A stretch of 64,000 bases of DNA from Cyanobium sp. M30B3. Lineage in GTDB: Bacteria > Cyanobacteriota > Cyanobacteriia > PCC-6307 > Cyanobiaceae. The stretch spans positions 558,001-622,000 of the forward strand of contig CP073761.1 of assembly GCA_018399015.1 (NCBI GenBank). Direction: 5' to 3'. The notes below the pieces were generated by a model. That model worked only from the letters and a program-made list of their open reading frames with translations. It searched no databases and was not told where the DNA came from. The position numbers were made by a program, and so were the translations under genes. The first letter of the stretch is position 1, and every line of letters begins with the position of its first letter. Shown here one piece after another: positions 25,820 to 57,700 of this stretch.

Positions 25820-26345
25820 GGTAGCTGGTGCCATCGAGGGTCAGGCCCACGCAGCTGATGCCGTTGATTCGCTGGGCCTCAGCCGGCAACCAGTCGGCCA
25901 TCGCCCGCAGGTCGGCCACGATCACCACCGGGATCGGCACCCCGTCTTCTGTGAACAGGGCGCCATCGGGGAGCATCAGCCGGAAGCAGGGCAGCACCTG
26001 CGGCAGCTCGTCGTCCAGGCGGGGGGACGGTGTACGGCGGAAGGCTTCCGCCAGCTCTGGCGCCAGGAAGCGGGGCGGGGCCTCCAGGAGCCGCGCCCAG
26101 CGGCAGGTGGTGGCGGCCCAGAAGCCGATTGGATCGGCCAGCTCGCTCATCACATCCGCGCCGGCCTCGATCAGGGCGGCGTAGGCCAGGTGATTGGCCC
26201 AGTGCTGAAAACCCCGCGGCGAGCGGTAGCGGTGCTGCTCCTGCTGGATGTAAGGGTCCTGGCGGCGCAGTTCGGTGATCACCGTGCCGATCGGCGGCAG
26301 CTCCGCCTGGCTGGCGCGGATCGATTCAGGCGTCAGCCGGCTCAT
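25785..26345 (-). CDS. conserved-looking hypothetical protein (186 aa)
   Basis: ATG at 26345. Soluble, helix-rich N-terminus (DPYIQQEQHRYRSPRGFQHW, then ANHLAYAALIEAGADVMSEL) and a C-terminal half with VVIVADLRAMADWLPAEAQR. Sequence complexity and codon use are those of a real gene. Family not recognised. It abuts the IS481 remnant on the same strand. Confidence 0.6.
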   Translation of the reverse strand: MSRLTPESIRASQAELPPIGTVITELRRQDPYIQQEQHRYRSPRGFQHWANHLAYAALIEAGADVMSELADPIGFWAATTCRWARLLEAPPRFLAPELAEAFRRTPSPRLDDELPQVLPCFRLMLPDGALFTEDGVPIPVVIVADLRAMADWLPAEAQRINGISCVGLTLDGTSYLTRHSAGLSAT

Positions 26346-26906
26346 CAGCGTGAATCAGCAGTGCCGGTTGCAGATCCTCGCCATCCTCGCTGGATGGCGG
26401 ATGCTGGGACCATCACCCAAGGAGAGCCACCGCCGTGCCCGGATTCCACATCACCACTGCCCACCCGCTCGAAACGGATCAGCTGTTTGGTGTCGACGTG
26501 GATCATGTCGCCGGGGCGCTCCCACTGGTAGCGCTGCACTGGCTTCCTGGGCTCCAGATTCCTGAGCCGGCCAAGCCCCAGGGCGTTCATCACCCTCCCG
26601 ACAGTGGCGAGGGGCGCCTTCAGTGCCTTGGCGATTCGGCGGAGCGTGCAGCGCTGGGCGGTGATCCACGGCCTGCTGCAGTTGCTGCGGATCGAGCGTC
26701 CGCCGCTGGCTACGGCTAACACTCCGGCGATCCGCCAGAGAGGCTGGACCACCTGAGCGGTAACGAGCCAGGCAGCGGGAGGCGCAGCGCAGGCTGATGC
26801 CGTTCTCTGCGGCCAGCTCCTTCAGGCTGCGGCCGTGCTCCAGATGCTGGGTCACGAGCCTCATGCGGCCTCTCTGGGTCAGACGGGCATTCGGGTGGCT
26901 ATGCAT
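26345..26906 (-). pseudogene. IS481-family transposase, frameshifted and truncated
   Basis: The N-terminal frame (HSHPNARLTQRGRMRLVTQH, GRSLKELAAENGISLRCASR, CLARYRSGGPASLADRRS) is the helix-turn-helix region of IS481 transposases. It then continues in another frame with IAKALKAPLATVGRVMNALG, RLRNLEPRKPVQRYQWERPG and DMIHVDTKQLIRFERVG, which holds the first catalytic Asp of the DDE domain. The gene ends soon after, so the remaining D and E are lost. Terminal inverted repeats are not evident. It marks the left edge of the CRISPR-Cas locus. Confidence 0.8.
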
Positions 26907-27066
26907 GGGGGCGTGAGGTCGAGATTGGTGGGTCGCACGTCAACCCGTAGCGGCCTCAAGCCCCCTTGTCATTGGAGCCGGTAAACTCGTCTCTATGACC
27001 ACCTGATCCGTGTCCACGGATACAAGGGAAGCCCATAGATCAGCCTTGAAGCGGAGAGGCGAACTG

Positions 27067-28569
27067 ATGACCTTCTCTCTTCTGACTGAGCCCTGGTTGC
27101 CCCTGCTCGCCACCACGGGCCAGCACCAGCAGGCCTCCTTACGCGATGCACTACTCAAACCGGGCCGCTGGGCCGGGCTTGACGCAGTACATCCCCTGCA
27201 GTGCCTAGCGATCTACCGCCTGCTCCTGGCCATCTGCCACCGGGCGATCGGCCCAGGCACCTTTGACGACCGGCTGGAGCTCCTCGATACCTGGCCGGCA
27301 AATCGGATCGATGCCTATCTGCAGCAATGGGCTGACCGCTTCGATCTGTTCGGCAGCGATCGGCCCTTCATGCAGCACCCGATCGCCCCCCGGGCCGGGA
27401 AGAAGGAGCCCGGCTCTAAGGAACCAGCCTCGCTGGCCAGCCTGCAGATTGAGCGCTCCAGCGGCAACAACCGCACCCTCTGGGACCGCAGCCTGGACTC
27501 CACTCCACTGCGACTCACCCCTGCTGGGCAGGCCATCACCTTGATCACTGCACAGCAGTTCTCAGGCAGCGGAACTGTCCAGGGCTTCAGAACCAGCGGC
27601 AGCTACGGGCTCGCCAGCAACCTTCAGCTGGTGATGCCCGTAGGCGCTGACCTCCAGCAGACCCTTGCGCTCAACCTGGTCCTCCAGAGCGAGGAGGAGC
27701 ACAAGCTCGATCTCCCCTGTTGGGAACGGGAGCTCCTGAGTGAGAAGGAGCTGCGCGGCAACCCAGTACGTGTCCCTGCCGGTCCTGCAGACCGTTACAC
27801 CTATGGCGTGCGCACCTTCTTACTGAGGGAGGACGGCCTAGTTCACATCGCAGAAGGCGAGATCCCTGGGGCATCCCCAGTGGTGGATCCGATGTCGGCC
27901 GTGGTGCAGGGATCTAAGGGGCCGATGTCCTTGATGCTGCGCACTGATCGGACATTGTGGCGGGATGCCACCGCCCTGCTCGGCGGCGACTGCTCCGACC
28001 CCCCTGCAGTGCTCAAGCACGCCGCTGAGCTGATGAGGTGGGTAGATCATTACGAGCCTCTCGAACTCCTTGCCGGAGGGCTGGTAGTAGACAAAGGTAA
28101 GGGTGTTGTCTGGCGCCTGGAGCAGCGCCACCTGGCCCCCGCTCTGGTGGGCAATTCCGAAGCGCAGGCCGTGGTCGAAACCCTGGTTGAGCACGCCAGC
28201 GTCACCTCAAAGGCCTTGTTCGGCGCCACCTCATCTCTCTGCCGCCATTGGCTGGATCAGGGCAGTGTCGCGGGAGCGGATCCCAAGGTTGTGGCGGGCC
28301 TGCGCAGCAGCCTCAAGGCCGATGCCCTGTTCTGGGGATCATTGGAGACTGAGTTCTGGGGTGCCTTGCACGCCCTGGGCGATGGCGCCACGGGCGATGC
28401 CGTACTGGAGGGCTGGCGTCAGACGCTCCGCCTCACAGTGCGGATGGTCTGGGACCACTGCTGCCGCCAGATCGGCGACGACGGCCGGGCGCTGCGGGCC
28501 CAGGGCAAAGCCAGCCACGCTCTCGGGAGTGTGATGGCCGGGTTGGCTACGCCGGAGACAGTGGCGTAA
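27067..28569 (+). CDS. cas8e: Cas8e (CasA/Cse1), Cascade large subunit
   Basis: Cas8e recognises the PAM in target DNA and recruits Cas3 in type I-E systems. 500 residues from ATG at 27067 (MTFSLLTEPWLPLLATTGQH), the usual family length. Family hallmarks: 'WLPL' start, ALLKPGRWAGLDAVHPLQCL, RPFMQHPIAP, ITAQQFSGSGTVQGFRTSGS and a C-terminal four-helix bundle (RQTLRLTVRMVWDHCCRQIG). It is the first gene of the operon; the 126 bases before it, after the IS481 remnant, must hold the promoter. A CRISPR-repeat-like element starts five bases after its stop. Confidence 0.95.
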   Translation: MTFSLLTEPWLPLLATTGQHQQASLRDALLKPGRWAGLDAVHPLQCLAIYRLLLAICHRAIGPGTFDDRLELLDTWPANRIDAYLQQWADRFDLFGSDRPFMQHPIAPRAGKKEPGSKEPASLASLQIERSSGNNRTLWDRSLDSTPLRLTPAGQAITLITAQQFSGSGTVQGFRTSGSYGLASNLQLVMPVGADLQQTLALNLVLQSEEEHKLDLPCWERELLSEKELRGNPVRVPAGPADRYTYGVRTFLLREDGLVHIAEGEIPGASPVVDPMSAVVQGSKGPMSLMLRTDRTLWRDATALLGGDCSDPPAVLKHAAELMRWVDHYEPLELLAGGLVVDKGKGVVWRLEQRHLAPALVGNSEAQAVVETLVEHASVTSKALFGATSSLCRHWLDQGSVAGADPKVVAGLRSSLKADALFWGSLETEFWGALHALGDGATGDAVLEGWRQTLRLTVRMVWDHCCRQIGDDGRALRAQGKASHALGSVMAGLATPETVA

Positions 28570-28573
28570 AGAT

Positions 28574-28602
28574 GAACGCCCCACACGAGTGGGGATGGGC
28601 CC
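28574..28602 (+). repeat. orphan CRISPR-repeat-like element between cas8e and cse2
   Basis: 29 bases that match the array repeat at 23 positions, in the same orientation. The two stem arms CCCCAC and GTGGGG are identical to the array; only the loop (ACGA instead of GCGT) and bases 2-4 differ, plus the last base. The segment after the stem, ATGGGCC, equals the array's 5' handle in seven of eight bases. There is no second repeat one unit away. See the findings. Confidence 0.85.
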
Positions 28603-28734
28603 CACCTATAGATCCTGCGCGGCTGCACGCTTCCGCATCTGCACCCACCCCACAACGGTGGAGATTCCACTGCCGCTCTTTTGCTACTACCCTCCAAAGG
28701 TCGAAAAGCGCCTGTCCGATAGCCGCTCCCTCCG

Positions 28735-29232
28735 ATGGATTCCTCCTCCTTCTTTTCGGCCCTGGAGCGCAAGGCCAGCACCGATTCCAGTGTTGTAGCC
28801 ACGCTCCGGCGCTGCATGACCGCTGATCGGCCAGAGCTTCATGCACCGGCCTTTCCCTTAGTCGAACCGCTGCTGCGCGGTGAGCCTGCCTACACCAGGC
28901 CCATGGCCTACCTCGCTGCCGGTTGCTGGGCCTCTGCCGTTCGGCAAGGTCGGGGCAAACCTGTGGCTTTGCCTGAGGCGCTGCGCCAGCTGGCCAAGTC
29001 AGCTCAGGGGACTGAGCGCCGCTTCGTGCAACTTCTCGATTCAGACGCCGACGAACTTGCCTGGCGTCTGCGCCAGATCATCCAGCTGGTCGCAAGCCAA
29101 GGCGTCACTCTCGACTGGCCGGCCCTGCTCGATGACCTTCAGCGCTGGGGATCGCCATATCGCAGCGTCCAGACCCGCTGGGGCCGCATCTTCTGGGGTT
29201 CAGCCACTGACCAAGACACCTCAGCCACCTGA
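28735..29232 (+). CDS. cse2: Cse2 (CasB, Cas11e), Cascade small subunit
   Basis: 165 residues, helical, as expected for the small subunit that lines the inside of Cascade and holds the displaced DNA strand. Recognisable parts: PLVEPLLRGEPAYTRPMAYL, AAGCWASAVRQG, ERRFVQLLDSDADELAWRLR and WGRIFWG at the end. It starts 165 bases after cas8e, an unusually large gap that contains the orphan repeat. The next gene follows after 26 bases. Confidence 0.92.
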   Translation: MDSSSFFSALERKASTDSSVVATLRRCMTADRPELHAPAFPLVEPLLRGEPAYTRPMAYLAAGCWASAVRQGRGKPVALPEALRQLAKSAQGTERRFVQLLDSDADELAWRLRQIIQLVASQGVTLDWPALLDDLQRWGSPYRSVQTRWGRIFWGSATDQDTSAT

Positions 29233-29258: not shown

Positions 29259-30361
29259 GTGACCACCTACATCGACATCAACATTCTCCAGAACGTCGCC
29301 CCTGGTTGCCTCAACCGGGACGACGTTGGAGCCCCAAGACTGCGATGTTCGGTGGTACACGCCGCGCCCGCATCTCCTCTCAGTGCCTCAAGCGCGCCCA
29401 GCGCAAGGCCTTCGCTCAGATGGGCTTGCTTGACGAGGAAGAGCTGGGCACCCGCACCAACCGCATCGTCTCCCACATCGAAACAGCCCTCGCAGAACGG
29501 GGACTGGAGGACACCAGAGAAGCCATCACAGCTGCCCTCAACCTCGCAGGTCTGAAGGTCAAAGAGAAGAAGGCCAAAGCCGACGGTTCCGACGGTGGCG
29601 TTCAGACCGAGTACCTGCTTTTCCTCGGCAATACCGCCATCTCTGAGCTGATCGAGGTGATCGCCGAGCACCACGAAGCTTTGGCCTCAGGCAAAGCACC
29701 GGCAAGTGTGAAGAAGGCCGTGCAGGGCTGCATCGGCGCCAACTCCGTTGATGTGGCGATGTTCGGCCGCATGATTGCCGACGACAAGGAGCTGAGCACC
29801 GACGCCGCCATTCAAGTGGCGCACTCCCTCTCCACCCATGCTGTGCAGCGGGAATCGGACTTCTTCACTGCCGTGGATGACCTGGCACCCGCCGATGAAG
29901 CCGTTTCGGGAATGCTCAGTTCGGTGGAGTTCAACTCCGCCTGCCACTACCGCTTCGCCAGCATCAACTTCGACCTGCTGGAGGCCAATCTGAACGGTGA
30001 TCGTGAGCTGGCCCTCAAGGGCGTCCGCGCCTACATCCGCGCCGCGGTGATGGCGATCCCCACTGGGAAACAAAACACCTTCGCTGCCCACAATCTGCCC
30101 GAGTTCGTGGCGATCGGCGTCCACAACTCCCAGCCCATCTCCCTGGCCAACGCTTTCCAGCGCTCTGTCGGGGCTGGCGAGCTCCGGGACGGCCTGGTGC
30201 ACGCAAGCGTCCAGCGCCTTGAGGAGCATGCCGGCACCCTCTGTTCGGCCTATGGGCTGGAAATTGGTCTGCGGGCACTTGACCTCACCGGCGCCTGGAC
30301 TGGCGAAAGCGCGGCGAATCTCGACGCCCTGGTGGAGAGCGTGATCGCGGAGCTGGGCTGA
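29259..30361 (+). pseudogene. cas7e: Cas7e (CasC/Cse4), Cascade backbone, one-base frameshift
   Basis: Cas7e polymerises along the crRNA to form the Cascade backbone. GTG at 29259 starts TTYIDINILQNVAPGCLNRD then DVGAP, the normal Cas7e N-terminus. The expected continuation KTAMFGGTRRARISSQCLKR is in the -1 frame, starting at AAG 29336. Restoring one C in the run at 29332-29335 (four C to five) joins both parts into a normal 367-residue Cas7e ending at 30361. All downstream sequence is well conserved (CHYRFASINFDLL, GKQNTFAAHN). So the gene is broken only at this point: a recent mutation, a sequencing error or, less likely, recoding. It overlaps cas5e by one base. Confidence 0.9.
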
Positions 30362-31008
30362 TGGCCACGCTCCTTATCCCTTTGGTCGGCCCCCTGCAGA
30401 GCTGGGGCCTTGATTCGAGGTTTGACCTACGTCTCACCGCCCAGGAACCATCGTTCTCTGGAGTGCTCGGGCTGGTCTGCGCTGCCCTTGGCAGGGACCG
30501 CTCCGAGCCCGTCAATGACCTCGCCTCACTGAACTTCGGAGTCCGCGCCGATGCGGAGGGAGACCTGCTGCGGGATTACCACACCGTCCAGGACTGCATT
30601 ACAGCCTCCGGCTCGACGGGCGGAACCGCCGTTACCACCCGCTGGTATCTGGCGGATGCCGCCTTCACCGCCGCTCTGGAGGGTCCGGAGGATCTGCTGG
30701 CTCGGATCCACACCGCCCTGCGCAACCCCGTCTGGGGCCTAGCACTGGGGCGGAAGGCATGCCTCCCAACAGTGCCGATGGCGGCCGGTGGGTTGGTTGA
30801 GGCTGGGCTGAAGGATGCCCTGGTCGCCGCCCCCCTGCTGGCAGGAGCCCCTGGTGATCGCCGCATCGTCGTCACCGACCCCATCGGCCCTCAATCAAGG
30901 CCGGATGTCCCCGTAGCTCCGTTCGCGGAACGCCGGTTCGGGATGCGACGGGTTAGGACCAGCAGCGTGGCGGTGGGCCTTGAGACTTCGGTTGCCCTTG
31001 GTACGTGA
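30361..31008 (+). CDS. cas5e: Cas5e (CasD), caps the crRNA 5' handle
   Basis: 215 residues from ATG at 30361 (MATLLIPLVGPLQSWGLDSR). 'PLQSWG' is the Cas5 signature. Further family sequence: DYHTVQDCITASGSTGGTAV, YLADAAFTAALEG and WGLALGRKACLPTVPM. Cas5e binds the 5' handle of the crRNA beside Cas7e and Cas8e. One-base overlap with cas7e suggests coupled translation. 89 bases separate it from cas6e. Confidence 0.95.
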   Translation: MATLLIPLVGPLQSWGLDSRFDLRLTAQEPSFSGVLGLVCAALGRDRSEPVNDLASLNFGVRADAEGDLLRDYHTVQDCITASGSTGGTAVTTRWYLADAAFTAALEGPEDLLARIHTALRNPVWGLALGRKACLPTVPMAAGGLVEAGLKDALVAAPLLAGAPGDRRIVVTDPIGPQSRPDVPVAPFAERRFGMRRVRTSSVAVGLETSVALGT

Positions 31009-31027: not shown

Positions 31028-31057
31028 TCTTGCCCCCTCAAAGATGGGGATGCTTTT
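31028..31057 (+). repeat. weak repeat-like hairpin between cas5e and cas6e
   Basis: TTGCCCC, an eight-base loop region, then TGGGGATG, then CTTTT. The outer blocks TTGCCCC and TGGGGATG are identical to the array repeat and in the same orientation; the central bases differ and are one longer. The following T run means it could equally be a transcription terminator or attenuator. Confidence 0.4.
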
Positions 31058-31097
31058 GGTAGAGCGTCATTTTGACGAGACCTAACCAGTCCCCTCC

Positions 31098-31703
31098 ATG
31101 TACCTCTCTCGTTTGACGTTCAACCTGGCCTCTGCTGCGGTCCGCCGGGATCTGAGCGATGCCTATGAAACCCATCGCACTCTCACACGTCTGGTGAGTG
31201 AGGGCCCTGAGGCTCAGCCCAGAAAGTTTCTCTGGCGCCAGGAGCGGGCCGACTCAGGGGAGGCACCGATCTTGCTGATGCAGTCGGAGGTCAAACCGCA
31301 GTTCGAAAACCTCCCCGATGGCTATGTGCTCGATGCCACCACCAAGGAGTGGAACCCCGTTGTTCCAGAAGGGATGCTGCTCACCTTCCGAGTCAGGGCC
31401 AATCCCTGCGTGAAGCGGAATGGGAAACGCGTGGCGCTGCGCCGCCTGGAGGAGCAGCTGGTCTGGATGCAGCGCCAGGCCACTGTGAACCTGGGCCTGG
31501 AGCTGGTGCAGTGCGGCGTCACCGGCACCGGGGAGATCCGCTCTACCCGCCGCGCCGGAAGCCAGATCGTGGCCACCGCTGCCCAGTTCGAGGGTGTCGC
31601 TCGCGCCGCTGACCCCGAGCGCCTCGCCGCCGGTATCCGCATGGGCATCGGTCACACCCGCCTGCTGGGCCTGGGCCTGGTCTCCATCGCGCGCGTGCGC
31701 TGA
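31098..31703 (+). CDS. cas6e: Cas6e (CasE), crRNA-processing endoribonuclease
   Basis: 201 residues from ATG at 31098. It cuts each repeat at the 3' base of its hairpin and stays bound to the crRNA. Y23 and H26, the positions used for catalysis in characterised Cas6e enzymes, are both present (DAYETHRTL). The C-terminal glycine-rich loop IRMGIGHTRLLGLGLVSIAR is typical. It is the intact one of two cas6e genes here; the second (36651) is broken. Its stop overlaps the cas3 start (TGATG). Confidence 0.95.
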   Translation: MYLSRLTFNLASAAVRRDLSDAYETHRTLTRLVSEGPEAQPRKFLWRQERADSGEAPILLMQSEVKPQFENLPDGYVLDATTKEWNPVVPEGMLLTFRVRANPCVKRNGKRVALRRLEEQLVWMQRQATVNLGLELVQCGVTGTGEIRSTRRAGSQIVATAAQFEGVARAADPERLAAGIRMGIGHTRLLGLGLVSIARVR

Positions 31704-34168
31704 TGGCCCTGACCAGCTCGGTCCTGTGGGCGAAAAGTTCCGATCGCTGCGCCGGTGCATCGGGTGATGGCTATCCGCTGCCCCAGCACCTTCTGGACGT
31801 GGCGGCGGTGGCGATGGAGCTGCAGGCCGCTGTGCCCTGCCCTGGTGGCATGGATCGGGCGTGGGCCTCGGCCTTGGCCGGCTGCCACGATCTGGGGAAA
31901 GCCAGCCCCGGCTTCCAGCGCTTGCTCGGGCGGGCGGCGGTGCCCGGCTTTGACATGCCGATCGGCCCTGACCGGCATGACGCCATGACGGTGCCGATCC
32001 TCAGTGCCCGGCTGCAGGGCCTGGGCCTGGGCCGGATCTCGGCCAAGGCCTTTGCCGATGCAGTCGGTGCTCACCACGGCAGCGTCGTGGCCAGCACGGA
32101 GGTGATGAAGGCCGGCAGCTGGGCTACACGCTGCAGCCCGGCTTGGCGCAACGCCCACGATGAGCTGTTCCAGATCCTGCTCACCAGCACCGGTGCCGCA
32201 GGCCTGCCCCCGGATCTCGATCCAGCCCAGCTCCGCTGGCTGATGGGCCTCACCACCGTCGCGGACTGGATCGGATCCAGCGATGCCCTCTGCCGGGCCG
32301 ATCGCCTGGGGGAGGCCTTCGAGCCGCAGGACTGGTTCGAACACGGCCGCATCCTGGCCCGGGCGGCCCTGATCGGCATCGGCCTGGCCGGTGGTGGTCT
32401 GCAATCCGTGCCCAGCGGGCGCAGTGCCCTGGCCCTGGCCCTGGACGGCTGGGCACCCCGTCCCCTCCAGCTGTGCGTCGCCGACGTGCTCGATGACTTC
32501 GGCGATGAGCCAGGCCTGATCGTCATCGAAGCCCCCATGGGGGAAGGGAAAACCGAGGCGGGCTTGGGTTGCGGCGTGCCCCTGGGCTCCGGCTGCGGCC
32601 GTGGCCGCGGCATCTACATGGCGATGCCCACCCAGGCCACCAGCAACGCCCTCTACGGACGCGTCGCCCGCTTCCTTGATCGAGCCAGCGCCGGCCGCAG
32701 CGAGTTGGCCCTGGCCCACGGTGCCGGTGGGCCCTGGGCTGCGCAGGCCAAGCTGCGGGAGATCGGCCTAGGCACGCCAGACTCCTCCGTGCAGGCCGCC
32801 TGGTGGTTCAAGGGATCCAAGCGGGCACTGCTTGCCAGCAACGGCATCGGCACCGTGGATCAGGCCCTGATCGGCGTACTCAATGCCCGGCACAGCTTCG
32901 TCCGCCTGTTCGGGCTGGCCGGGCGGACAGTGATCTTCGACGAGCTCCATGCCTACGACTCCTACACGGGAGGCCTGATCGAGAGGTTGGCTAACTGGCT
33001 CCAGGGCCTGGGCTGCCGTGTGGTGCTGATGAGCGCCACGCTGCCGGCGGCGCGCCGGGATTCAATTCTTCAGGCCTGGGCCGGCGACGTGCCGGTGCCG
33101 GCCGCTGCCTATCCTCGCGTCACCTGGGCCCGGCCCGGGGCCGTGCAGGCCGTGGCCTTCCCCGCCGCCCGCCAGCAACAACTGGTGGTGGAGGGCATCG
33201 ACGCCGATAACGTGGCGGCCCGGGCGGTGGCCATGGCCAAGCAGGGCGCCCGGGTGCTGCTTGTGGTGAATAAGGTGCGCCGTGCTCAAGAGCTGTATGG
33301 CCTCACCGCCGGCAGCGTGCCCTCCACGCTTTTCCACGCCCGCTTCCCAATGGACGAGCGGCTGGAGATCGAGCGGCGGGTGCTTCAGCAGTTCGGCCCG
33401 GGCGGCTCCTGCACCGGCGGCCACGTGCTGGTGGCCACGCAGGTGGCAGAGCAGTCCCTCGACATCGACATGGACGTGCTCATCACCGACATGGCACCGG
33501 TGGATCTGGTGATGCAGCGCGCCGGCCGCATCCACCGCCACGATCGGGCCAGGCCCGCGGGTTTCGAGCAGCCCCTGGTGCTGGTGGCTGGCCTGGATGA
33601 GGTGTTGCCCCCGCTGGCCCTGACTTCGTTCATCTACGACCGCTGGTTGGTGCTGCGTTCCACCGCCTGGCTCCAGGCCCATCCCCAGCTTCAGTTCCCG
33701 GGCGACATCGACCTGGCGGTGCAGGAGGTCTATGGATCGGAGGCGGTGGCTGCAGGGCCAGAGCTGATTGATGCCATCGAGGCCGCCTGGCCTGACCATC
33801 AGGCGGAGGAAAAGGAGATGGTGGAGCTTGCTCGCCAGGCAGCCAGTGAGGCCGCGGCGCCCATGGACGACGAGATCGCCGATGGCGGTGCCCAGTTCGG
33901 GACGCGCCTGGGCCAGGACAGTCAGAGCATCGTGCCGGTAACGGCCGAGCAATTGGCTGCGCTGGAAGAGCACGGCCCGTTCCTGGCCGGCCACTACCTG
34001 CGCATCACCCACCGAGGTCTGATGCGCCACGCCAGGGCCCAGCCTTGGCCTCCGGGCTGGCGCGATCAGTCAGGCCTGCGTCACCACCGGCCCCTGCTGG
34101 TGGTGGACGGGGCCGTGACCTGCTTCGACGCCCGGTTGGACCCCGAACTAGGGCTGGTAATAACATGA
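31703..34168 (+). CDS. cas3: Cas3 HD nuclease-helicase
   Basis: 821 residues. The N-terminal HD nuclease has CHDLGKASPGFQ near residue 60 and GAHHGS. The helicase part has Walker A APMGEGKTEA (near residue 277), the DELH box IFDELHAYD (near 411), MSATLP (near 443) and QRAGRIHRH (near 604). Cas3 is recruited by Cascade to nick, unwind and degrade target DNA. All motifs are intact. Its position after cas6e and directly before the array, instead of upstream of cas8e, is unusual for type I-E. It overlaps cas6e by one base. Confidence 0.95.
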   Translation: MALTSSVLWAKSSDRCAGASGDGYPLPQHLLDVAAVAMELQAAVPCPGGMDRAWASALAGCHDLGKASPGFQRLLGRAAVPGFDMPIGPDRHDAMTVPILSARLQGLGLGRISAKAFADAVGAHHGSVVASTEVMKAGSWATRCSPAWRNAHDELFQILLTSTGAAGLPPDLDPAQLRWLMGLTTVADWIGSSDALCRADRLGEAFEPQDWFEHGRILARAALIGIGLAGGGLQSVPSGRSALALALDGWAPRPLQLCVADVLDDFGDEPGLIVIEAPMGEGKTEAGLGCGVPLGSGCGRGRGIYMAMPTQATSNALYGRVARFLDRASAGRSELALAHGAGGPWAAQAKLREIGLGTPDSSVQAAWWFKGSKRALLASNGIGTVDQALIGVLNARHSFVRLFGLAGRTVIFDELHAYDSYTGGLIERLANWLQGLGCRVVLMSATLPAARRDSILQAWAGDVPVPAAAYPRVTWARPGAVQAVAFPAARQQQLVVEGIDADNVAARAVAMAKQGARVLLVVNKVRRAQELYGLTAGSVPSTLFHARFPMDERLEIERRVLQQFGPGGSCTGGHVLVATQVAEQSLDIDMDVLITDMAPVDLVMQRAGRIHRHDRARPAGFEQPLVLVAGLDEVLPPLALTSFIYDRWLVLRSTAWLQAHPQLQFPGDIDLAVQEVYGSEAVAAGPELIDAIEAAWPDHQAEEKEMVELARQAASEAAAPMDDEIADGGAQFGTRLGQDSQSIVPVTAEQLAALEEHGPFLAGHYLRITHRGLMRHARAQPWPPGWRDQSGLRHHRPLLVVDGAVTCFDARLDPELGLVIT

Positions 34169-34226: not shown

Positions 34227-36363
34227 GTTTGCCCCACGCGTGTGGGGATGGGCCGGATGTGGAGTTCCATGGCCCGATGGGTTTGGGGTTTGCCCCACGC
34301 GTGTGGGGATGGGCCGTTCGTTGGCACGAAGCCCTCGACCATCGCTGCGTTTGCCCCACGCGTGTGGGGATGGGCCGGTCAAGCTGCTCACCGCCGCAAC
34401 CTTCGACGCCGTTTGCCCCACGCGTGTGGGGATGGGCCGGGCCTGAAGGTGGCCCTGTATGTGACGAGGGTCGTTTGCCCCACGCGTGTGGGGATGGGCC
34501 GGCGGTGGAGCGGTTCGACCCGACCAAGGGTTAGTTTGCCCCACGCGTGTGGGGATGGGCCGTAATAGGTGAACTTGTTTTGAGGCGACAGATCCGTTTG
34601 CCCCACGCGTGTGGGGATGGGCCGTGGTTTGTGGATGTCTGGGATGTACTGGTGCCGTTTGCCCCACGCGTGTGGGGATGGGCCGAACTCCCGCGGGAAC
34701 TTGTGGACGCGGCGGGCCAGTTTGCCCCACGCGTGTGGGGATGGGCCGGTGAGGGCGTGTTCTATGACATTGAAGCCGAGCGTTTGCCCCACGCGTGTGG
34801 GGATGGGCCGGAAGTCTGCGGCACTGCAGAGATCACCAGCTACGTTTGCCCCACGCGTGTGGGGATGGGCCGAACTACACCCTGCTGGAGCTGGCCAGGC
34901 AGTACGTTTGCCCCACGCGTGTGGGGATGGGCCGTACCATCCCAGCAATTGCCGCCCGGATGGTAGCGTTTGCCCCACGCGTGTGGGGATGGGCCGACGA
35001 TCGGCAGTGCATCGGAGTGGAGTGCACCGCGTTTGCCCCACGCGTGTGGGGATGGGCCTCTTGAGTCATCGGTTCACTCCTCTAACAGTGGAGTTTGCCC
35101 CACGCGTGTGGGGATGGGCCTGATGCCACTGAACGCACGCTGACGTTCCCGGCCGTTTGCCCCACGCGTGTGGGGATGGGCCGGGTGTGACCAGATCTGC
35201 GGTAAGGCAGAGGTGGTTTGCCCCACGCGTGTGGGGATGGGCCGAGCGTCTCAGCCATCGCCCCGACCATGCCGGACGTTTGCCCCACGCGTGTGGGGAT
35301 GGGCCGAAGCGGGTCGCTTAGCTGCTGACCCCGAGCACGTTTGCCCCACGCGTGTGGGAATGGGCCGCGATGGTCTACCACCTGCGCCCGCACCGGGCCG
35401 TTTGCCCCACGCGTGTGGGGATGGGCCGGCACCGACGAATGGCACGCATTGCGGCGTGGTCGTTTGCCCCACGCGTGTGGGGATGGGCCGATTGACGGGC
35501 TTTGCCACGTAGAAGGTGCCACGTTTGCCCCACGCGTGTGGGGATGGGCCGCCTTCATCAATGCAGCCCGCCAAGCAAAGGCAGTTTGCCCCACGCGTGT
35601 GGGGATGGGCCGGCCGCTGCCTGGGGCTACCAGGAGGCCATGGCGTTTGCCCCACGCGTGTGGGGATGGGCCGCCCGCTCAGATCTAAGCAATCGAGCAT
35701 TTCCGCGTTTGCCCCACGCGTGTGGGGATGGGCCGTGCTGCCGATCCTGCGAGCTTCGGTCTTGCAACGTTTGCCCCACGCGTGTGGGGATGGGCCGGGA
35801 AGGGCCGAAGTACGCAAATGAATGCGGTGACGTTTGCCCCACGCGTGTGGGGATGGGCCGGCATAGATTGAGCGGGTCGCCGTCGATGGGAGCGTTTGCC
35901 CCACGCGTGTGGGGATGGGCCGGATCCCGTTCACGGAGCGGAACATCTACCGGATGCGTTTGCCCCACGCGTGTGGGGATGGGCCGTTCGTCAGCCCCAA
36001 GCCTGCATCGCTCCCGGCGGCCGTTTGCCCCACGCGTGTGGGGATGGGCCGAACGCAAACGCGGCGGGGCTGCTTTGCGGATTGGTTTGCCCCACGCGTG
36101 TGGGGATGGGCCGGCAGCATGCACTGCTGGGTCTTGCGCAAGCTGCGTTTGCCCCACGCGTGTGGGGATGGGCCGCTGAGGCCACCTTTCCCTTGCCGGC
36201 AGGAAAAGCGTTTGCCCCACGCGTGTGGGGATGGGCCGGTGTGGACGATCGGCTGGGGCAGCACCCGAATCGTTTGCCCCACGCGTGTGGGGATGGGCCG
36301 TCGTTCCTCGAGCCGCTGGCGTTCTGGGCCGGCCGTTTGCCCCACGCGTGTGGGGATGGGCCG
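34227..36363 (+). CRISPR. type I-E CRISPR array, 35 repeats and 34 spacers
   Basis: 35 copies of a 29-bp repeat (starts GTTTGCCCCACGCG, ends GGGGATGGGCCG) at 61-65-bp spacing, with spacers of 32-36 bases. The repeat folds as CCCCAC-GCGT-GTGGGG and its 3' part ATGGGCCG is the expected crRNA 5' handle, so transcription is left to right, the same as the cas genes. Nearly all repeats are perfect; the one at 35339 has GGGAATGG in place of GGGGATGG, and those at 35031 and 35093 end in T instead of G. Only 58 bases lie between the cas3 stop and the first repeat, so the leader is short or the array is read from the cas operon. I saw no duplicate spacers by eye. Confidence 0.98.
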
Positions 36364-36650
36364 CGAAAAAGCTGTCTACCGGCGGTGCCGCCAGGCAGCG
36401 GAACCATCGTTGAACTGTCAGGACGCGTTGCTGAAGCCCCGTCCTTGATCGAGAGCGTGAAGCACTACCGGCTGGTGTAGGAGGCCCCGTAGGGTTCTCA
36501 GTCCAGTCAGGATCAACCCCTGGCGCCCTTTGCCATCCGCCGCTTCGAAATGCACCGGGTTCGCTCGCTTTCGATCGAGGTTCCCGCAGCCACAGCGGCC
36601 AGCCAGTCCCTCACGGGGTTTTCTGCAACCCCAGCTCGAGAGCCCACGCC
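36364..36650. other. array trailer, no gene
   Basis: 287 bases between the last repeat and the second cas6e. No further repeat or degenerate repeat is visible. A block around 36480-36530 (GGAGGCCCCGTAGGG, CAGTCCAGTCAGG) has short inverted stretches but no T tract. Confidence 0.5.
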
Positions 36651-37320
36651 ATGACCCTGTTGCTCAACCGCCTCACCCTCAACCTTGGTCACCGCGATGT
36701 GCGCCGTGACCTGGGCAATGCCTACGACATGCACCGCACCCTGGCCCGGGCTTTTGCCAGCGGGCCTGATGACACTGTTCAACCATTCCTGTGGCGCCTT
36801 GAGACCACTCGCGAGGCGGAGCCGCCCAAGCTGCTGGTGCAATCCCAGGGGGAACCCCGATGGGAGCAGCTGCCAGCGGGATATCTGCAGGCCCATGCCC
36901 AGGCCCAGCGGAGCTGGCCCCTGAGGCCGACTTTGCCAAAGGGAAGTCCGTGGCCTTCCGGGTGCGCGCCAACCCGACGGTGAATCGCGTGCCCCAAGCC
37001 ACCAGTGGGGAACACCCCCCAGTGGGAGAAGACGGGGGCAACGGAAACGGCTGGGTCTTTGGCGGGAGGAGGAGCAACTGGAGCGGCTGCAGCGGCAGGC
37101 CGAGGGGCTCGGCCTGTGCGCAGTGGCGGCGACCATTAGCCATGTCGTGCGGCTGCGCCTCCCGCGCGGGGGGGCCGTGATGTCGGTCGCCACCGCTCAA
37201 TTCGATGGACAGGCGGTCATCGCCGATCCGGATGCCCTGGCCGCAGGAGTGCGCTCCGGTAACCGCCACGCCCGCATGTTGGGGCTGGGGCTGGTGTCTA
37301 TGGCGCCGCTGAGGGCGTAA
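36651..37320 (+). pseudogene. cas6e: second cas6e, frameshifted
   Basis: ATG at 36651. The N-terminus (LLLNRLTLNLGHRDVRRDLG, then NAYDMHRTLARAF) is Cas6e and keeps the Tyr/His pair; the end (GVRSGNRHARMLGLGLVSMA) is the Cas6e glycine-rich loop. Between them the reading frame changes at least twice: near 36890-36950 (ADFAKGKSVAFRVRANPTVN is in another frame) and again before SHVVRLRLPRGG. The stop at 37320 overlaps the cas1 ATG, as in an intact cas6e-cas1 junction. It is a divergent paralogue, not a copy, of the intact cas6e. Confidence 0.88.
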
Positions 37321-47317: not shown

Positions 47318-50300
47318 ATGGCTAAGCCCACCGCTGCAGACGTCAACTCCCGCGAGATCCGGGTGTTCATCTCCAGCACCTTTCGGGACTTCATGGAGGA
47401 GCGCGATCTGCTGGTGAAGCAGGTGTTTCCATCGCTGCGCAGAAAGGCCATGTTGCGAGGGGTTGAGATCGTGGATGTGGACTTGCGTTGGGGCATCACG
47501 CGGGAGGAGAGCGAGCAGGGCAAGGTGATTGGGATCTGCCTGGGCGAAATCGAACGCTGCAGGCCGTACTTCATTGGGATGCTGGGCGAACGGTATGGTT
47601 GGACTCCGCAGCCCGGTGACTACCCGCAGGAGCTACTGGAAAGCGAGCACCTGCAATGGATCAGAGACCACCAAGGTGGAGCCAGCGTCACTGAGCTAGA
47701 GATCCTGCACGGGGTTCTCAATAACCAGGAGATGGCTAGCCGGGCTTTCTTCTACTTTCGCGATCCCGCATGGAGCAGAGCACAGAGCGATCCTGGATTT
47801 GTCAGCGACTCACCAGAAGAAGAACAGAGGCTTGCCGATCTCAAGCAGCGGATACGCAGCAGCTGTTTTCAGGTAGCGGAAGATCTGGCCGATCCTGCCG
47901 CTATTGCTGCTGCAATCGAGGCAGATCTGTTGGCGCTGATCTATGAACAGTTCCCAGATGTGGAGCAAACCTATGCACTCGAGAAGGAAGCGCGCAAGCA
48001 CGCCGACTACAGACGAGCCCGCTTAGGAGCCGGCCAGTACATCGGCGGTGAGGCCTACATCGAGCAGCTGGAGCGCTGGCTGGAGGAGGGTCAGCATCAG
48101 ATCCTGATCACCGGCGAATCAGGTGCGGGCAAGAGTGCTCTGATCGCCAACTGGATGGAACGGCACGCCCAGGATCACCCAGGCGATGTGGTGTATGCCC
48201 ACCACCTGGGCTGCACCAACGACGCCAATGCCCTGCGGCCGCTGCTGGCCCGCTTGATCGACACGGCCTCAGCACAGCTGCTGGAGGCAGAGGTGATCAG
48301 CGTGGCGTATGCGGTGCCGGAAGACTGGTGGGAACTGGTGGCCAAAGTGGCCGAAACGCTGCAGACCCTCGGCCGCTGGTGCGAGCGACAGGGACAACGC
48401 TGGATCTGGGTGCTCGATGGGCTTGACCGGCTTGGCGCAGAGGATCAACAGGCTCTGCCCTGGCTGCCACTGCACCTGCCGGCCGGTGTGCAAGTGGTGG
48501 CCAGTGCCCTGGCCTGCCTGGCGCGGGAGATCCTTTGCCAGCGGAGCTACACGTTGCTGCCGATCAAGCTCCTGGGCCAATCCGAGCAGGAGGAATTGAT
48601 CCGCAGCTACCTGGGGCGCTACACCAAACAGCTGGATGGAGGTCTGCGACAGCGAATCCTGGATCACCAACGGGCGGGCTCACCGCTGTTTCTAAGGGTG
48701 CTGCTGGAAGAGCTTCGCCAGTGCGGCCGTTACGACATGCTTGACGCACAGCTGGCGTTCTATCTGAGTTCTGAAACGGTGGATGACCTGTATGAACGAG
48801 TGCTGGAGCGGCTGGAGAACGACGGCAGCAGTGAAGCTGTCAGAAAGGTGATGACCGCCTTGTGGGCCAGCCGGGCTGGACTCACAGAGCCGGAACTGCT
48901 GGAGATCACCGATCTCAAACAGCTGCAATGGGCACCGATCGATCTCGCGATGGAGAAGGCATTCGGCCGAAATGGCAACCGGCTGGTGTTTGATCACGAC
49001 TATCTACGGACTGCTGTTGAGGACAGGTATCTGCCCACAGAAGAGCAGCAGCGGCAGGCGCACAGCAAGCTTGCGGATTGGTATCAGAACCGCGATGGCT
49101 GGGATAAGCGTGATTCAGAAGATCTGCCCTGGCAGCTGAAGGAGGCAGGGCGATTCGATGACTTGCGCGACTGGGTTTTGACGCCCTGGGTACTCGCGAG
49201 GCTGCAATGGGATCGCGGCAGCCGCGAGACCATTAATTACTGGCACTCTGTCAAAGCTGAGGCAGGCGGTGAGCTAGATGAGCTGATTGCAGCTGCCGTA
49301 GAGGAAGAGATCGAGAAGCGAAAGGACAATGCTGCAGATCAGATCTGGTTCGTTGATCAAATTGGCAATCTTCTGGATGAGGCGGGTCTGTACCGCAAGC
49401 TATTACTGAGGTTGCGAACCCTGTCGCTGGAGCTGGAGGACACAACGGAAGAGCGCGATCAGGAAGCAATGCTCAGCAGCCTGGTCTGGCTTGCAGATAC
49501 TCATAGGATTATGGGTCAGTACAACGAAGCTGAAGAGCTTTTTCTGCGCTGCCTTGAAGCCAGTGAGCGGCTACTGGGTCCCGAGCACCCATCAACCCTA
49601 AGCTCCGTCGGCAATCTGGCCGGTCTCTTACAAGATAAGGGTGAGTACGAGCAGGCAGAGACTTTCTACAAACGCTGCCTGGAAGCCAGAGAGCGCCTGC
49701 TGGGTCCCGAGCACCCATCCACCCTAAACTCCGTCGGCAATCTGGCCGGTCTCTTACAAGATAAGGGTGAGTACGAGCAGGCAGAGGCTTTCTACAAACG
49801 CTGCCTGGAAGCCAGAGAGCGGCTGCTCGGGCCCGAACACCTCTCTACCCTCGCCTCCGTTGGCGATCTGGGCACTCTCTATTGGGCGAAGGGTAACTAC
49901 GAGCAGGCAGAGGCTTTCTACAAACGCTGCCTGGAAGCCAGAAAGCGGCTGCACGGGTACGAGCACCCTTTTACCCTCGCCACCATCGGCAATCTGGGCA
50001 ATCTCTATTGGGCCAAGGGAGACTACGAGCAGGCTGAGGTTTTCTATAAACGCTGCCTGGAAGCCAGAGAGCGGCTGCTCGGGCCCGAGCACCCTGACAC
50101 CCTCACCTCCGTCGGCAATCTGGCCGGACTCTTCCAGGACAAAGGCGAGTACCAGGAGGCGGAGGCTTACTACAAACGAGATCTGGAAGCCAGAGACCGG
50201 CTGCTCGGGGCCGACCACCCCTCCACCCTCACCACCGTCGGCAATCTGGGCAACCTCTATCGGGCCAAGGGCGATTACAAGCAGGCGGAGGCCCTATTTA

Positions 50301-52045
50301 CCCGTTGCCTGGAAGCCCGTGAGCGGCTGCTGGGGCCCGAGCACCCCGACACCCTCACCACCATCGGCAATCTGGGTCTGCTGTACAGCGACAAGGGCGA
50401 TTACGAGCAGGCGGAGGCCTTCTGCAACCGTTGCATGGAGGCCAGTGAGCGGCTGCTGGGGCCCGAGCACCCTTACACCCTCACCACCATCGGCAATCTG
50501 GGCAACCTCTATCGGGCCAAGGGTGACTACGACCAGGCGGAAGCCTTCTACAAACGCGATGTGGAGGCCAGTGAGCGGCTGCTGGGTCCTGAGCACCCCT
50601 CCACCCTCACCACCATCGGTAATCTGGGTCTGCTGTACAGCGACAAGGGCGATTACGAGCAGGCGGAGGCCTTCTACAACCGTTGCATGGAGGCCCGTGA
50701 GCGGCTGCTGGGGCCCGAGCACCCCGACACCCTCATGACCGTTGGCAATCTGGGCAACCTCTATCGGGCTAAGGGCGATTACGAGCAGGCGGAGGCCTTC
50801 TACAAACGCGATCTGGAGGCCAGTGAGCGGCTGCTGGGGCCCGAGCACCCCGACACCCTCACCACCATCGGTAATCTGGGTCTGCTGTACAGCGACAAGA
50901 GCGATTACGAGCAGGCGGAGGCCTTCTGCAACCGTTGCCTGGAGGCCCGTGAGCGGCTGCTGGGTCCTGAGCACCCCTCCACCCTCACAACCGTTGGCAA
51001 TCTGGGCAACCTCTATCGGGCAAAAGGCGATTACGAGCAGGCGGAGGCCTTCTGCAACCGTTGCCTGGAAGCCCGTGAGCGGCTGCTGGGGCCCGAGCAC
51101 CCCGACACCCTCACAACCGTTGACAATCTGAGCAACCTCTATCGGGCAAAGGGCGATTACGAGCAGGCGGAGGCCTTCTGCAACCGTTGCCTGGAGGCCC
51201 GTGAGCGGCTGCTGGGTCCTGAGCACCCCTCCACCCTCACAACCGTTGGCAATCTGGGCAACCTCTATCGGGCAAAGGGCGATTACGAGCAGGCGGAGGC
51301 CTTCTGCAACCGTTGCCTGGAAGCCCGTGAGCGGCTGCTGGGGCCCGAGCACCCCGACACCCTCACCACCATCGGCAATCTGGGTCTGCTGTACAGCGAC
51401 AAGGGCGATTACGAGCAGGCGGAGGCCTTCTACAAACGCGATCTGGAGGCCCGTCAGCGGCTGCTGGGGCCCGATCACCCCGACACCCTCAGCTCCGCCT
51501 ACAACCTGGCAGAAGTGCTCTCACAGCAGGGGCGTCCTGCAGAAGCCATCCCCCTCCGCCGCCGCGAACTGGCCTGGTGCCGGGAGCAGAACGTTGAAAC
51601 TGATTCTGGCACGCTCACCTCCATCAACGGCTTGGCAATCGACCTGCGCGAAACCGGCGCGCTGGATGAAGCAGAAGCCCTATTCCGTGAGCTTCTTGTA
51701 GCCCGCCAGCAGGTGCACGAACCCAGCGATTTCGGCATAGGCAGGGCCCTGGGCGGCCTGGCCAAAACACTGGTGGAGTCAGGAAAGCTTGAGGAAGCAG
51801 TCGCATTTGCCCAGCAGGCACTGGATCACCGTCTCGTGCACGAAGGCCACGATGCCTGGTGGACGAACCGTGAGCGGCTGGATCTGGCCCACATCCTCCA
51901 CAAGCTGGGACGATCCGCAGAAGCCATCCAGCTGCTCGACGCGCTGCAAGCCAGCATCACCTCAAAAGCAGAGCTCGACGACGAGGACTCCCAACTGCTT
52001 GCCGATGCGGCGGCCCTACGTAATCAGATCGATGCGAGTCCATGA
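47318..52045 (+). CDS. giant DUF4062-STAND NTPase-TPR protein 1 (1,575 aa)
   Basis: ATG at 47318; the frame is open upstream but unlike protein. Domains: 10-180 DUF4062 (EIRVFISSTFRDFMEERDLL, GVEIVDVDLRWGIT, CRPYFIGMLGERYGW, FFYFRDPAW); about 235-500 a STAND/NACHT-type NTPase with Walker A ITGESGAGKSALIANW near 265-275 and Walker B RWIWVLDGLDRL near 362-372; a winged-helix-like and helical part to about 700; then 16 near-identical 42-residue TPR units (pattern 'TVGNLGNLYRAKGDYEQAEAFYKRCLEARERLLGPEHPSTL', split in the text by variants) from about 714, and divergent TPRs to the end. STAND NTPases of this layout act as oligomerising sensors in bacterial defence. The last four bases overlap the next gene. 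Confidence 0.92.
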   Translation: MAKPTAADVNSREIRVFISSTFRDFMEERDLLVKQVFPSLRRKAMLRGVEIVDVDLRWGITREESEQGKVIGICLGEIERCRPYFIGMLGERYGWTPQPGDYPQELLESEHLQWIRDHQGGASVTELEILHGVLNNQEMASRAFFYFRDPAWSRAQSDPGFVSDSPEEEQRLADLKQRIRSSCFQVAEDLADPAAIAAAIEADLLALIYEQFPDVEQTYALEKEARKHADYRRARLGAGQYIGGEAYIEQLERWLEEGQHQILITGESGAGKSALIANWMERHAQDHPGDVVYAHHLGCTNDANALRPLLARLIDTASAQLLEAEVISVAYAVPEDWWELVAKVAETLQTLGRWCERQGQRWIWVLDGLDRLGAEDQQALPWLPLHLPAGVQVVASALACLAREILCQRSYTLLPIKLLGQSEQEELIRSYLGRYTKQLDGGLRQRILDHQRAGSPLFLRVLLEELRQCGRYDMLDAQLAFYLSSETVDDLYERVLERLENDGSSEAVRKVMTALWASRAGLTEPELLEITDLKQLQWAPIDLAMEKAFGRNGNRLVFDHDYLRTAVEDRYLPTEEQQRQAHSKLADWYQNRDGWDKRDSEDLPWQLKEAGRFDDLRDWVLTPWVLARLQWDRGSRETINYWHSVKAEAGGELDELIAAAVEEEIEKRKDNAADQIWFVDQIGNLLDEAGLYRKLLLRLRTLSLELEDTTEERDQEAMLSSLVWLADTHRIMGQYNEAEELFLRCLEASERLLGPEHPSTLSSVGNLAGLLQDKGEYEQAETFYKRCLEARERLLGPEHPSTLNSVGNLAGLLQDKGEYEQAEAFYKRCLEARERLLGPEHLSTLASVGDLGTLYWAKGNYEQAEAFYKRCLEARKRLHGYEHPFTLATIGNLGNLYWAKGDYEQAEVFYKRCLEARERLLGPEHPDTLTSVGNLAGLFQDKGEYQEAEAYYKRDLEARDRLLGADHPSTLTTVGNLGNLYRAKGDYKQAEALFTRCLEARERLLGPEHPDTLTTIGNLGLLYSDKGDYEQAEAFCNRCMEASERLLGPEHPYTLTTIGNLGNLYRAKGDYDQAEAFYKRDVEASERLLGPEHPSTLTTIGNLGLLYSDKGDYEQAEAFYNRCMEARERLLGPEHPDTLMTVGNLGNLYRAKGDYEQAEAFYKRDLEASERLLGPEHPDTLTTIGNLGLLYSDKSDYEQAEAFCNRCLEARERLLGPEHPSTLTTVGNLGNLYRAKGDYEQAEAFCNRCLEARERLLGPEHPDTLTTVDNLSNLYRAKGDYEQAEAFCNRCLEARERLLGPEHPSTLTTVGNLGNLYRAKGDYEQAEAFCNRCLEARERLLGPEHPDTLTTIGNLGLLYSDKGDYEQAEAFYKRDLEARQRLLGPDHPDTLSSAYNLAEVLSQQGRPAEAIPLRRRELAWCREQNVETDSGTLTSINGLAIDLRETGALDEAEALFRELLVARQQVHEPSDFGIGRALGGLAKTLVESGKLEEAVAFAQQALDHRLVHEGHDAWWTNRERLDLAHILHKLGRSAEAIQLLDALQASITSKAELDDEDSQLLADAAALRNQIDASP

Positions 52046-54717: not shown

Positions 54718-57700
54718 ATGGCTGAGCCCACCGCTGCTGACGTCAACTCCCGCGAGATCCGGGTGTTCATCTCCAGCACCTTTCGGGATTTCAACGAAGA
54801 GCGGCGGTTGCTGGCAACCCAGGTGTTCCCCGAGCTGAACCGCCGGGCAAGGGAGCGGGGTGTGGAGCTGGTGGAGGTGGACCTGAGGTGGGGCGTGACC
54901 CAGGAGCAAGTGGAGGACGGCCATGCGTTGGAGATCTGCCTGAAGGAGATTGAGCGCTGCCGGCCTTACTTCATCGGCATGCTGGGCGACAGCTACGGCA
55001 GCCTGACGCCACCCGAGCGGCAGCTGCTGATGGCCGCACCGGAGCTGCTGGAAAAACGCCAGTGGCTGGCAGGCCAGCTCGGCGAGCTGAGCTATACGGA
55101 TCTGGAGATCGGCCACAGCCTGGAGCTGTTGCGTGATCAGCAGCTGGAAGGCCGGGCCTTCTTCTATTTCCGCGATCCAGCATGGAGCGACCCCAAAGCC
55201 AATGCAGGTGAGGCCGGCTGGCGCAGCGATGATCCACCCGAGCGGCAGAAGCTGGAGCTGCTGCGCAGCCGCATCCGCAGCAGCGGCCACCCACTGGTGG
55301 AGGGTCTGCAGAGCCCACAGGCGATCGCCGATCGCATCAAGGAAGACCTCTGGGCACTGATCGATCGCCAGTTCCCGGAAGGTGAGCAGCCCGATGCACT
55401 GCAGAAGGAGGAGCGCAAACACGCCGACTACCGGCGGTCTCGTACCCGTCCTGGCGAGTACGTGGGTGGTGAGGGCTATATCCAGCAGCTGGAGGGTTGG
55501 ATCGAGACGGGCCGGCAGCAGATCCTGATCACAGGCGAATCGGGATCAGGCAAGAGCGCCCTGATCGCCAACTGGATGGAGCGGCACAGCCAGAGCCATC
55601 CAGCTGATGTGATCTATCCCCACCACCTGGGCTGCACGAACGACGCCAATGCGCTGCGACCGCTTCTGGGCCGGCTGATCGATACGGCGTCCCAGCTGTT
55701 GCTGGAAGCCGAGGTGATCCGTGAGGCCTTTGCGGTGCCGGAGGACTGGTGGGAGCTGGTGGCCAAGGTGGCTGAAACCCTCCAGACCCTCGGCCGCTGG
55801 GGCCAGCAGCAGACAAAACGCTGGATCTGGGTGCTCGATGGCCTCGATCGCCTCGATCCAGACGATCAGCAGGCTTTGCCCTGGCTGCCGCTGAATCTGC
55901 CGGCAGGCGTGCAGGTAGTGGCCAGTTCCCTGGCCTGCCCCGCTAGAGAGATCCTGAATGAACAGGGGTACTCCACCCTCCCCATCGAGCCACTGGCCCA
56001 AGCAGAACAGGAGCAGCTCATCCAGCGCTATCTGCAGCGCTACACCAAGGAGCTCGATGGTGGCTTGCGCCAGCAGATCCTGAGCCACCCCCTCGCGGGC
56101 TCACCGCTGTTCCTGAAGGTGCTGCTGGAGGAGCTGCGCCAATGCGGACGGCACGACACCTTGCAGCAGCAGCTGGGCTTCTACCTCAGCTCCCAGACCG
56201 TCGACGATCTCTATGAGCGGGTGCTGGAGCGGCTCGAGAACGACGGCAGCAGTGAAGCTGTCAGGAAGGTGATGACAGCCTTGTGGGCCAGTCGAGCGGG
56301 TCTCACAGAGCCGGAACTGCTGGAGATCAAAGATCTCAAACAGCTGCAATGGGCACCGATAGATCTGGCGCTGGAGAAGGCATTCGGCCGCAACGGCAAC
56401 CGGCTGGTGTTTGACCACGACTACCTGCGCATTGCCGTACAGGACCGGTATCTGCCCACAGAAGAGCAGCAGCGGCAGGCGCACAGCGAACTGGCGGATT
56501 GGTATCAGAGCCGCGATGGCTGGGATGAGCGCGATTCAGAGGAGCTGCCCTGGCAGCTGAGGGAAGCATGGCGATTCGATGACTTGCGCGACTGGCTCTT
56601 GACGCCCTGGGTACTCGCGAGGCTGCAATGGGATCGCGGCAGCCGCGAGACCATCAATTACTGGCTCTCTGTAAAAGCTGAGGCAGGCGGTGAGCTTGAT
56701 GAGCTGATTGCAGCTGCCGTAGAGGAAGAGATCGAGAAGCGGAAGGAAAATGCTGCAGATCAGATCTGGTTCGTTGATCGAATTGGCAATCTTCTGGATG
56801 AGGCGGGGCTGTACCGCGAGCTGCTGTTGCGCCTGAGAACCCTGTCATTGGGGCTGGAGGAGGCGACAGAAGGACAAGATGAGAAATCAATGCTCACCAG
56901 CCTGGCCTGGCTGGCCGATGCTCACCGAGGCATGGGCAACTACGACGAAGCAGAAAGGCTGTATTTGCGCTGCCTGGAGGCCCGTGAGCGACTGCTGGGA
57001 ACCGAGCACCCCTCCACCCTCACCACCGTCGGCAATCTGGCCGGCCTGTTCATGGACAAGGGCGATTACCAACAGGCAGAGGCGTACTACAGGCGAGACC
57101 TGGAGGCTAGTGAGCGCCTGCTGGGTCCCGAACACCCCTCCACCCTCACCACTGTCGGCAATCTGGCCGGCCTGTTCATGGACAAGGGCGATTACCAACA
57201 GGCAGAGGCGTACTACAGGCGAGACCTGGAGGCCAGTGAGCGCCTGCTGGGTCCCGAGCACCCCTCCACCCTCGCCACTGTCGGCAATCTGGGCAATCTC
57301 TACCTGGCCAAGGGTGATTACGAGCAGGCGGAGGCTTCCTACAGCCGTTGCCTGGAGGCCCATGAGCGGCTGTTGGGTCCCGAGCACCCGTCAACCCTCA
57401 CCACCGTCGGCAATCTGGGTGTGCTCTACAGCGACAAGGGCGCTTACGAGCAGGCAGAGGCGTACTACAGGCGAGACCTGGAGGCTAGTGAGCGCCTGCT
57501 GGGTCCCGAGCACCCCGACACCCTCACCACCGCTGGCAATCTGGGCTCTCTCTACTGGGCCAAGGGTGATTACGAGCAAGCGGAGGTCTGCTACATCCGC
57601 TGCCTGGAGGCCCGTGAGCGGCTGCTGGGAACCGAGCACCCCTCCACCCTCACCACTGTCGGCAATCTGGGCAATCTCTACCGCGCCAAGGGCGATTACG

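Follow-up and report, generated by a model that had tools for sequence, protein, structure and literature searches.

What is the role of a CRISPR-repeat-like element that lies outside its array, between two genes of a cas operon? This question is raised by the type I-E locus of Cyanobium sp. M30B3, which we analysed within a stretch of 64 kb (64,000 nucleotides; the whole of it is referred to as the window). NCBIfam models identified cas3, cas8e, cse2, cas7, cas5, cas6e and cas1, and cas2 was detected by tblastn only; together with an array of 29-nt repeats, these genes define the locus as type I-E. The plus strand encodes cas8e (cse1/casA; 27067-28569; TIGR02547, 162 bits), cse2 (casB; 28735-29232; TIGR02548), cas7e (casC; 29259-30361; TIGR01869 on its second part), cas5e (30361-31008; TIGR01868), cas6e (31098-31703; TIGR01907) and cas3 (31703-34168; TIGR01587 and TIGR01596), as well as the array of 35 repeats (34227-36362).

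A repeat-like element and a second repeat core in the cas8e-cse2 gap

The repeat-like element, termed psiR1 (GAACGCCCCACACGAGTGGGGATGGGCCC, 28574-28602, plus strand), starts four bases 3' of the cas8e TAA stop codon (28567-28569). It matches the array repeat GTTTGCCCCACGCGTGTGGGGATGGGCCG on the same strand at 23 of 29 positions, with mismatches at positions 2, 3, 4, 12, 15 and 29. Both arms of the stem, CCCCAC (28579-28584) and GTGGGG (28589-28594), are identical to those of the array repeat, and the handle ATGGGCCC (28595-28602) retains an intact ATGGGCC-. The runner-up among non-array matches in the 64 kb window reached only 19/29, and a score of at least 23/29 was obtained at none of 19.4 million positions in a first-order Markov simulation. 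A chance origin of the match is thereby excluded. RNA folding prediction returned the expected hairpin of 6 bp with a 4-nt loop. The original prediction of a repeat-like element with an intact Cas6e-type stem at this position is thus borne out, and cleavage of psiR1 by the Cas6e encoded downstream, the enzyme expected to cut it, is plausible; Cas6e may still cut here if the operon is expressed.

The 132 bases that follow (28603-28734) had been described as free of genes; they do hold a second repeat core (28648-28665), which the original prediction overlooked. A search of the window for the repeat core, allowing one mismatch, recovered the array, psiR1 and this second, strongly degenerate repeat, psiR2 (28643-28671, plus strand). 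Its core consists of CCCCAC (28648-28653), the loop AACG, GTGGAG (28658-28663) and AT (28664-28665), and matches at 13 of 14 core positions. Cores of this grade are expected 0.03 times per shuffled 64 kb window and arose at a rate of 5.6e-7 per position in simulation. Because psiR2 on its own is predicted to fold into a structure other than the repeat hairpin, its stem would be weak, if functional. A weak terminator-like hairpin followed by CTCTTTT (28656-28676, plus strand) overlaps psiR2; the consensus scan that identified it found four such signals, compared to a mean of 1.0 in shuffles.

Between the two repeats lies a spacer analogue, or guide, of 40 nt (CACCTATAGATCCTGCGCGGCTGCACGCTTCCGCATCTGC, 28603-28642, plus strand), which is longer than the array spacers (about 32-33 nt) and than the 35-nt spacer of the mini-CRISPRs in two relatives (L010 and L011, see below). 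With a second repeat core in the gap, psiR1 becomes one half of a two-repeat mini-CRISPR, psiR1-guide-psiR2, and both repeat analogues lie outside the array, inside the cas locus and in array orientation, as described for CreRs. Of the two outcomes originally proposed for Cas6e cleavage, this layout favours the release of a crRNA-like RNA beginning at 28595, which we consider likely, over a cut that sets the cas8e:cse2 ratio. The only Rfam match was sub-threshold and on the opposite strand (nhaA-I, 19.5 vs 37 bits) and was taken as chance. One more hairpin resembling the repeat, located between cas5 and cas6e (GCCCCCTCAAAGATGGGGATGC, 31028-31058), was rejected, since its loop is 1 nt longer and its folding no better than that of shuffles.

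Repeat-like elements between cas3 and cas8e in relatives

The cas8e lineage is rare and was detected in 7 of 400 family genomes, the window's own included. The other 12 genomes of the genus lack the locus (1/13 carry it), so that no close relative carries it, and viral contigs held no relative of the window cas8e. In five of the six family relatives, repeat-like elements were found in the cas3-cas8e gap, namely in Synechococcus sp. J7-Johnson (L008), Ca. Synechococcus spongiarum SH4 (L009) and the MAGs CAR3_bin_5 (L010), jk18x1bzbins.87 (L011) and PNGco_S_binSS4 (L013); Synechococcus sp. ATX 2A4 (L012) showed none in this gap. The same gap holds repeat-like elements in four distant cyanobacterial I-E loci (L066, L067, L073 and L081). 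L009 carries three repeat analogues instead of two. A common motif similar to AAGCTGG(A/T)CCACCAA follows the last repeat analogue in L009 (15633-15850), L010 (7820-7880) and L011 (8620-8680; all on the cas8e-sense strand).

In contrast, the search of relatives' cas8e-cse2 gaps for the same stem that had been suggested was negative: the element is absent there in the five relatives read (L009-L013) and was not found in the distant I-E loci. This bears directly on the reading in which Cas6e would cut the polycistronic mRNA at psiR1, thereby parting cas8e from cse2 and tuning their ratio. The sense orientation within the operon and the intact, array-identical stem with its expected fold would suit such a site. 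However, it is missing from this gap in all relatives examined, in which the element serves as a guide RNA gene at another site, and the reading leaves psiR2 and the guide unexplained. We therefore regard it as improbable, and mRNA cutting as the main function, as first put forward, is not upheld.

To compare guides with their surroundings, the 16 bases 3' of psiR1 in nine loci were scored against both strands of the cas3-cas8e gap, leaving positions 6 and 12 unscored and ignoring the PAM. Eight of the nine loci contain a guide site in this gap that matches at 12-14 of the 14 scored positions (shuffled-guide p below 0.001 to 0.008), with the match spanning positions 1-5, 7-11 and 13-15. AAG, the main PAM of the E. 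coli I-E system, precedes the site in seven of the eight loci, although it was not part of the score, and TAT in the remaining one. Within positions 1-15, mismatches fell on position 6 in five and on position 12 in six of the eight loci, and on any other position in at most one; as these two positions were omitted from the score, the mismatches show them to be free rather than selected. The sites downstream of the element lie 35 (L010), 36 (L011), 40 (L009) and 57 nt (L013) before the cas8e ATG, whereas each of the four distant loci has its best site upstream of psiR1. Judging from their position, the target sites are probably promoters.

A seed match beside an AAG PAM, with positions 6 and 12 left free, fits Cascade guides. 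These data provide strong comparative evidence that cyanobacterial I-E systems, ranging from the Synechococcus relatives to distant orders, harbour candidate crRNA-like autorepressors between cas3 and cas8e, and they open the RNA-guided control of CRISPR in cyanobacteria to direct tests. Autoregulation as a theme was already, and rightly, part of the original prediction. The ninth locus, J7-Johnson (L008), has no guide target in its cas3-cas8e gap, and neither cse2 nor cas5 could be matched in this genome; the system therefore looks degenerate. In its I-E locus, a single repeat-like element separates cas3 from cas8e, and an array with the degenerate terminal repeats GTTCGCCCCACACACGTGGGGATAGCCCC and GTTCGCCCCACTCATATGGGGATTGCGCT comes immediately after cas8e.

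A rearranged cas operon

While the gene order in readable relatives is cas3 - cas8e - cse2 - cas7 - cas5 - cas6e - cas1 (- cas2) - array, the order in the window is cas8e - mini-CRISPR - cse2 - cas7 - cas5 - cas6e - cas3 - array - (cas5 fragment) - second cas6e copy - cas1 - cas2, so that cas3 lies downstream of cas6e instead of upstream of cas8e. Compared to its relatives, the window operon looks like a mosaic, in which a cas8e-to-cas6e module would have come to lie in front of cas3, with the array occupying the position of the relatives' cas3-cas8e gap. In addition, the reading frame of cas7 breaks near 29335-29340, with the N-terminal 27 aa in one frame and the remainder in another, whereas relatives encode it in a single frame; Cascade may thus be inactive, or the split may be a sequencing slip.

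The stretch between the array and cas1 (36364-37314) contains a C-terminal piece of cas5, which scores 44% against the cas5 of the window itself, and a further cas6e copy that is interrupted. Over its first 98 aa, this copy resembles relatives' cas6e (53-61%) more closely than the intact cas6e does, which suggests replacement of a module. Immediately upstream of the region of the cas8e promoter, the minus strand carries transposase-like ORFs in overlapping frames (26345-26906). Elsewhere in the window, an 8-mer recurs mostly every 126 bases at 49819-51457 and 57618-58122, suggesting tandem 42-aa repeats in two large genes.

Such rearrangement is also what the main rival builds on, namely that two decaying repeats and one spacer are the remnant of an ordinary array once located between cas8e and cse2, with no regulatory past. 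The array directly after cas8e in J7-Johnson, with its degenerate terminal repeats, indicates that such a remnant could look alike, and in the window itself the visibly rearranged operon has its array between cas3 and the cas5 fragment. On the other hand, these operons often carry mini-CRISPRs in their cas gaps but seldom an array within them.

The window guide and its possible targets

In the window, no in-register target of the guide was found. The best in-register matches to the cas gaps reached 8-9 of 14 positions, which equals the array spacers (null 8-10), and no target was detected, on either strand or at the offsets searched, in the cas8e promoter, upstream of cse2, in the cas5-cas6e gap, in the array leader or upstream of cas1. 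The 63 nt 3' of psiR2 and the rest of the window likewise held no target. A match to a cas promoter at positions 1-5 and 7-11 beside a PAM, as expected of a CreR, is thus absent, and so is an adjacent toxin RNA gene whose promoter is targeted by the guide, as in CreTA. Because the in-register guide performs no better than array spacers, identification as a CreR rests on architecture and homology of position.

We did find a candidate decayed target upstream of cas8e, where AAG (27029-27031) is followed by CCCATAGATCAGCC (27029-27045 with the AAG, plus strand), which matches the guide only with a 2-nt shift. At this +2 offset, AAG|CCCATAGATC (27029-27041) agrees with the guide at 9/12. The site lies 35 nt upstream of the cas8e ATG (27067), the distance found in L010. 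A score of 9/12 with AAG at this offset was also reached by 0.9% of shuffled guides, 1.2% of random 30-mers and 1 of 32 array spacers, and as the offset was allowed only after the match had been seen, the resulting p of about 0.01 is generous. This AAG is probably the ancestral target site, now offset by 2 nt. With the guide-target match either absent or shifted by 2 nt, present activity is doubtful.

These results also weigh on the array remnant. The lack of an in-register target of the guide counts in its favour. Against it speak the match with AAG that the guide retains, at a shift, 35 nt upstream of cas8e (p of about 0.01) and the absence of any phage match of the spacer above chance: the guide gave only short matches to phages and viral contigs, none better than chance or extending into a protospacer, and the 16-nt viral matches failed to extend. 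The array spacers of the window, compared with phages for the PAM of the strain, yielded no match either. Overall, we consider an array remnant rather unlikely, behind a displaced autorepressor.

A further reading is that the element is an active CreR or CreA whose target, for example a different promoter of the host or a toxin gene (CreTA), went unrecognised here. The good preservation of psiR1, as though it were still cut, and a guide with no obvious array origin would agree with this. However, a coarse pattern search of the whole genome returned 76 matches with at most two mismatches compared to 102 for the reversed control, and hence no enrichment; the five genomic sites with one mismatch all lack AAG (preceded by GTC, CAG, CAA, CGG and CTA), no AAG-flanked match above 10/15 occurs in the 64 kb window, and cas7 is frameshifted. 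We give this reading little credence. Equally small is the chance that the element functions at its present position, where a Cas6e cut at 28594/28595 would separate cas8e from cse2 and free a guide repressing cas8e through a shifted or unrecognised target; if true, an intra-operon mini-CRISPR would couple mRNA processing to Cascade-mediated repression.

Taken together, with a probability of roughly one half, we propose that psiR1-guide-psiR2 derives from a CreR-type autorepressor that was moved when the operon was rearranged and most likely no longer acts as a repressor. The ancestral mini-CRISPR would have been transcribed together with the cas genes, its transcript cut by Cas6e and the crRNA-like guide loaded into Cascade; through a partial match of roughly 11-15 nt, the guide would then have brought Cascade to the cas promoter and repressed it. 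Two repeat analogues separated by a spacer-length gap are present in the window, and relatives' guides match a site beside AAG in the cas3-cas8e gap; cleavage, loading, promoter function of the targets and repression are what we infer from these. The lack of an in-register target, the slipped ancestral site, the frameshifted cas7 and the weak psiR2 all point to an inactive copy. As a probable relic, it illustrates how operon rearrangement may shift such an element and lead to its decay.

Comparison with known systems

CreRs, or cas-regulating RNAs, have been reported for I-B, I-E and V-A systems (PMC13131331; Liu et al. 2023 Cell Host Microbe, as cited in PMC13131331 and PMC12737573), and CRISPR-derived regulatory elements have, according to its title, been surveyed by Shmakov 2023 NAR (cited in PMC10651486). 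With CreRs and surveys already published, the window element belongs to a kind already known, but its position is unusual and it failed the target test; the cyanobacterial comparative result may or may not already appear in published surveys. The element resembles CreR as a crRNA-like RNA gene with repeat analogues inside a type I cas locus, I-E included, and the guides of relatives show a partial match to a site that lies upstream of cas8e beside AAG. Unlike CreR, the window element is located downstream rather than upstream of cas8e, and its guide has no in-register promoter target.

The solitary repeat units known as Racrs (PMC10651486) are likewise repeat mimics outside an array. In contrast to the window element, which has two repeats and belongs to a host cas operon, Racrs are encoded by viruses or plasmids and inhibit Cas proteins. 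CreA of the CreTA module (Li 2021 Science; PMC8501985; PMC9458426) shares the psiR1-psiS-psiR2 layout with degenerate repeats; the window differs in that no toxin gene creT was recognised and that psiR2, not psiR1, is the more degenerate repeat. CreA guides pair with their target at positions 1-5 and 7-11, while positions 6 and 12 take no part (PMC8501985), and the guides of the cyanobacterial relatives follow this published pairing at positions 1-5 and 7-11.
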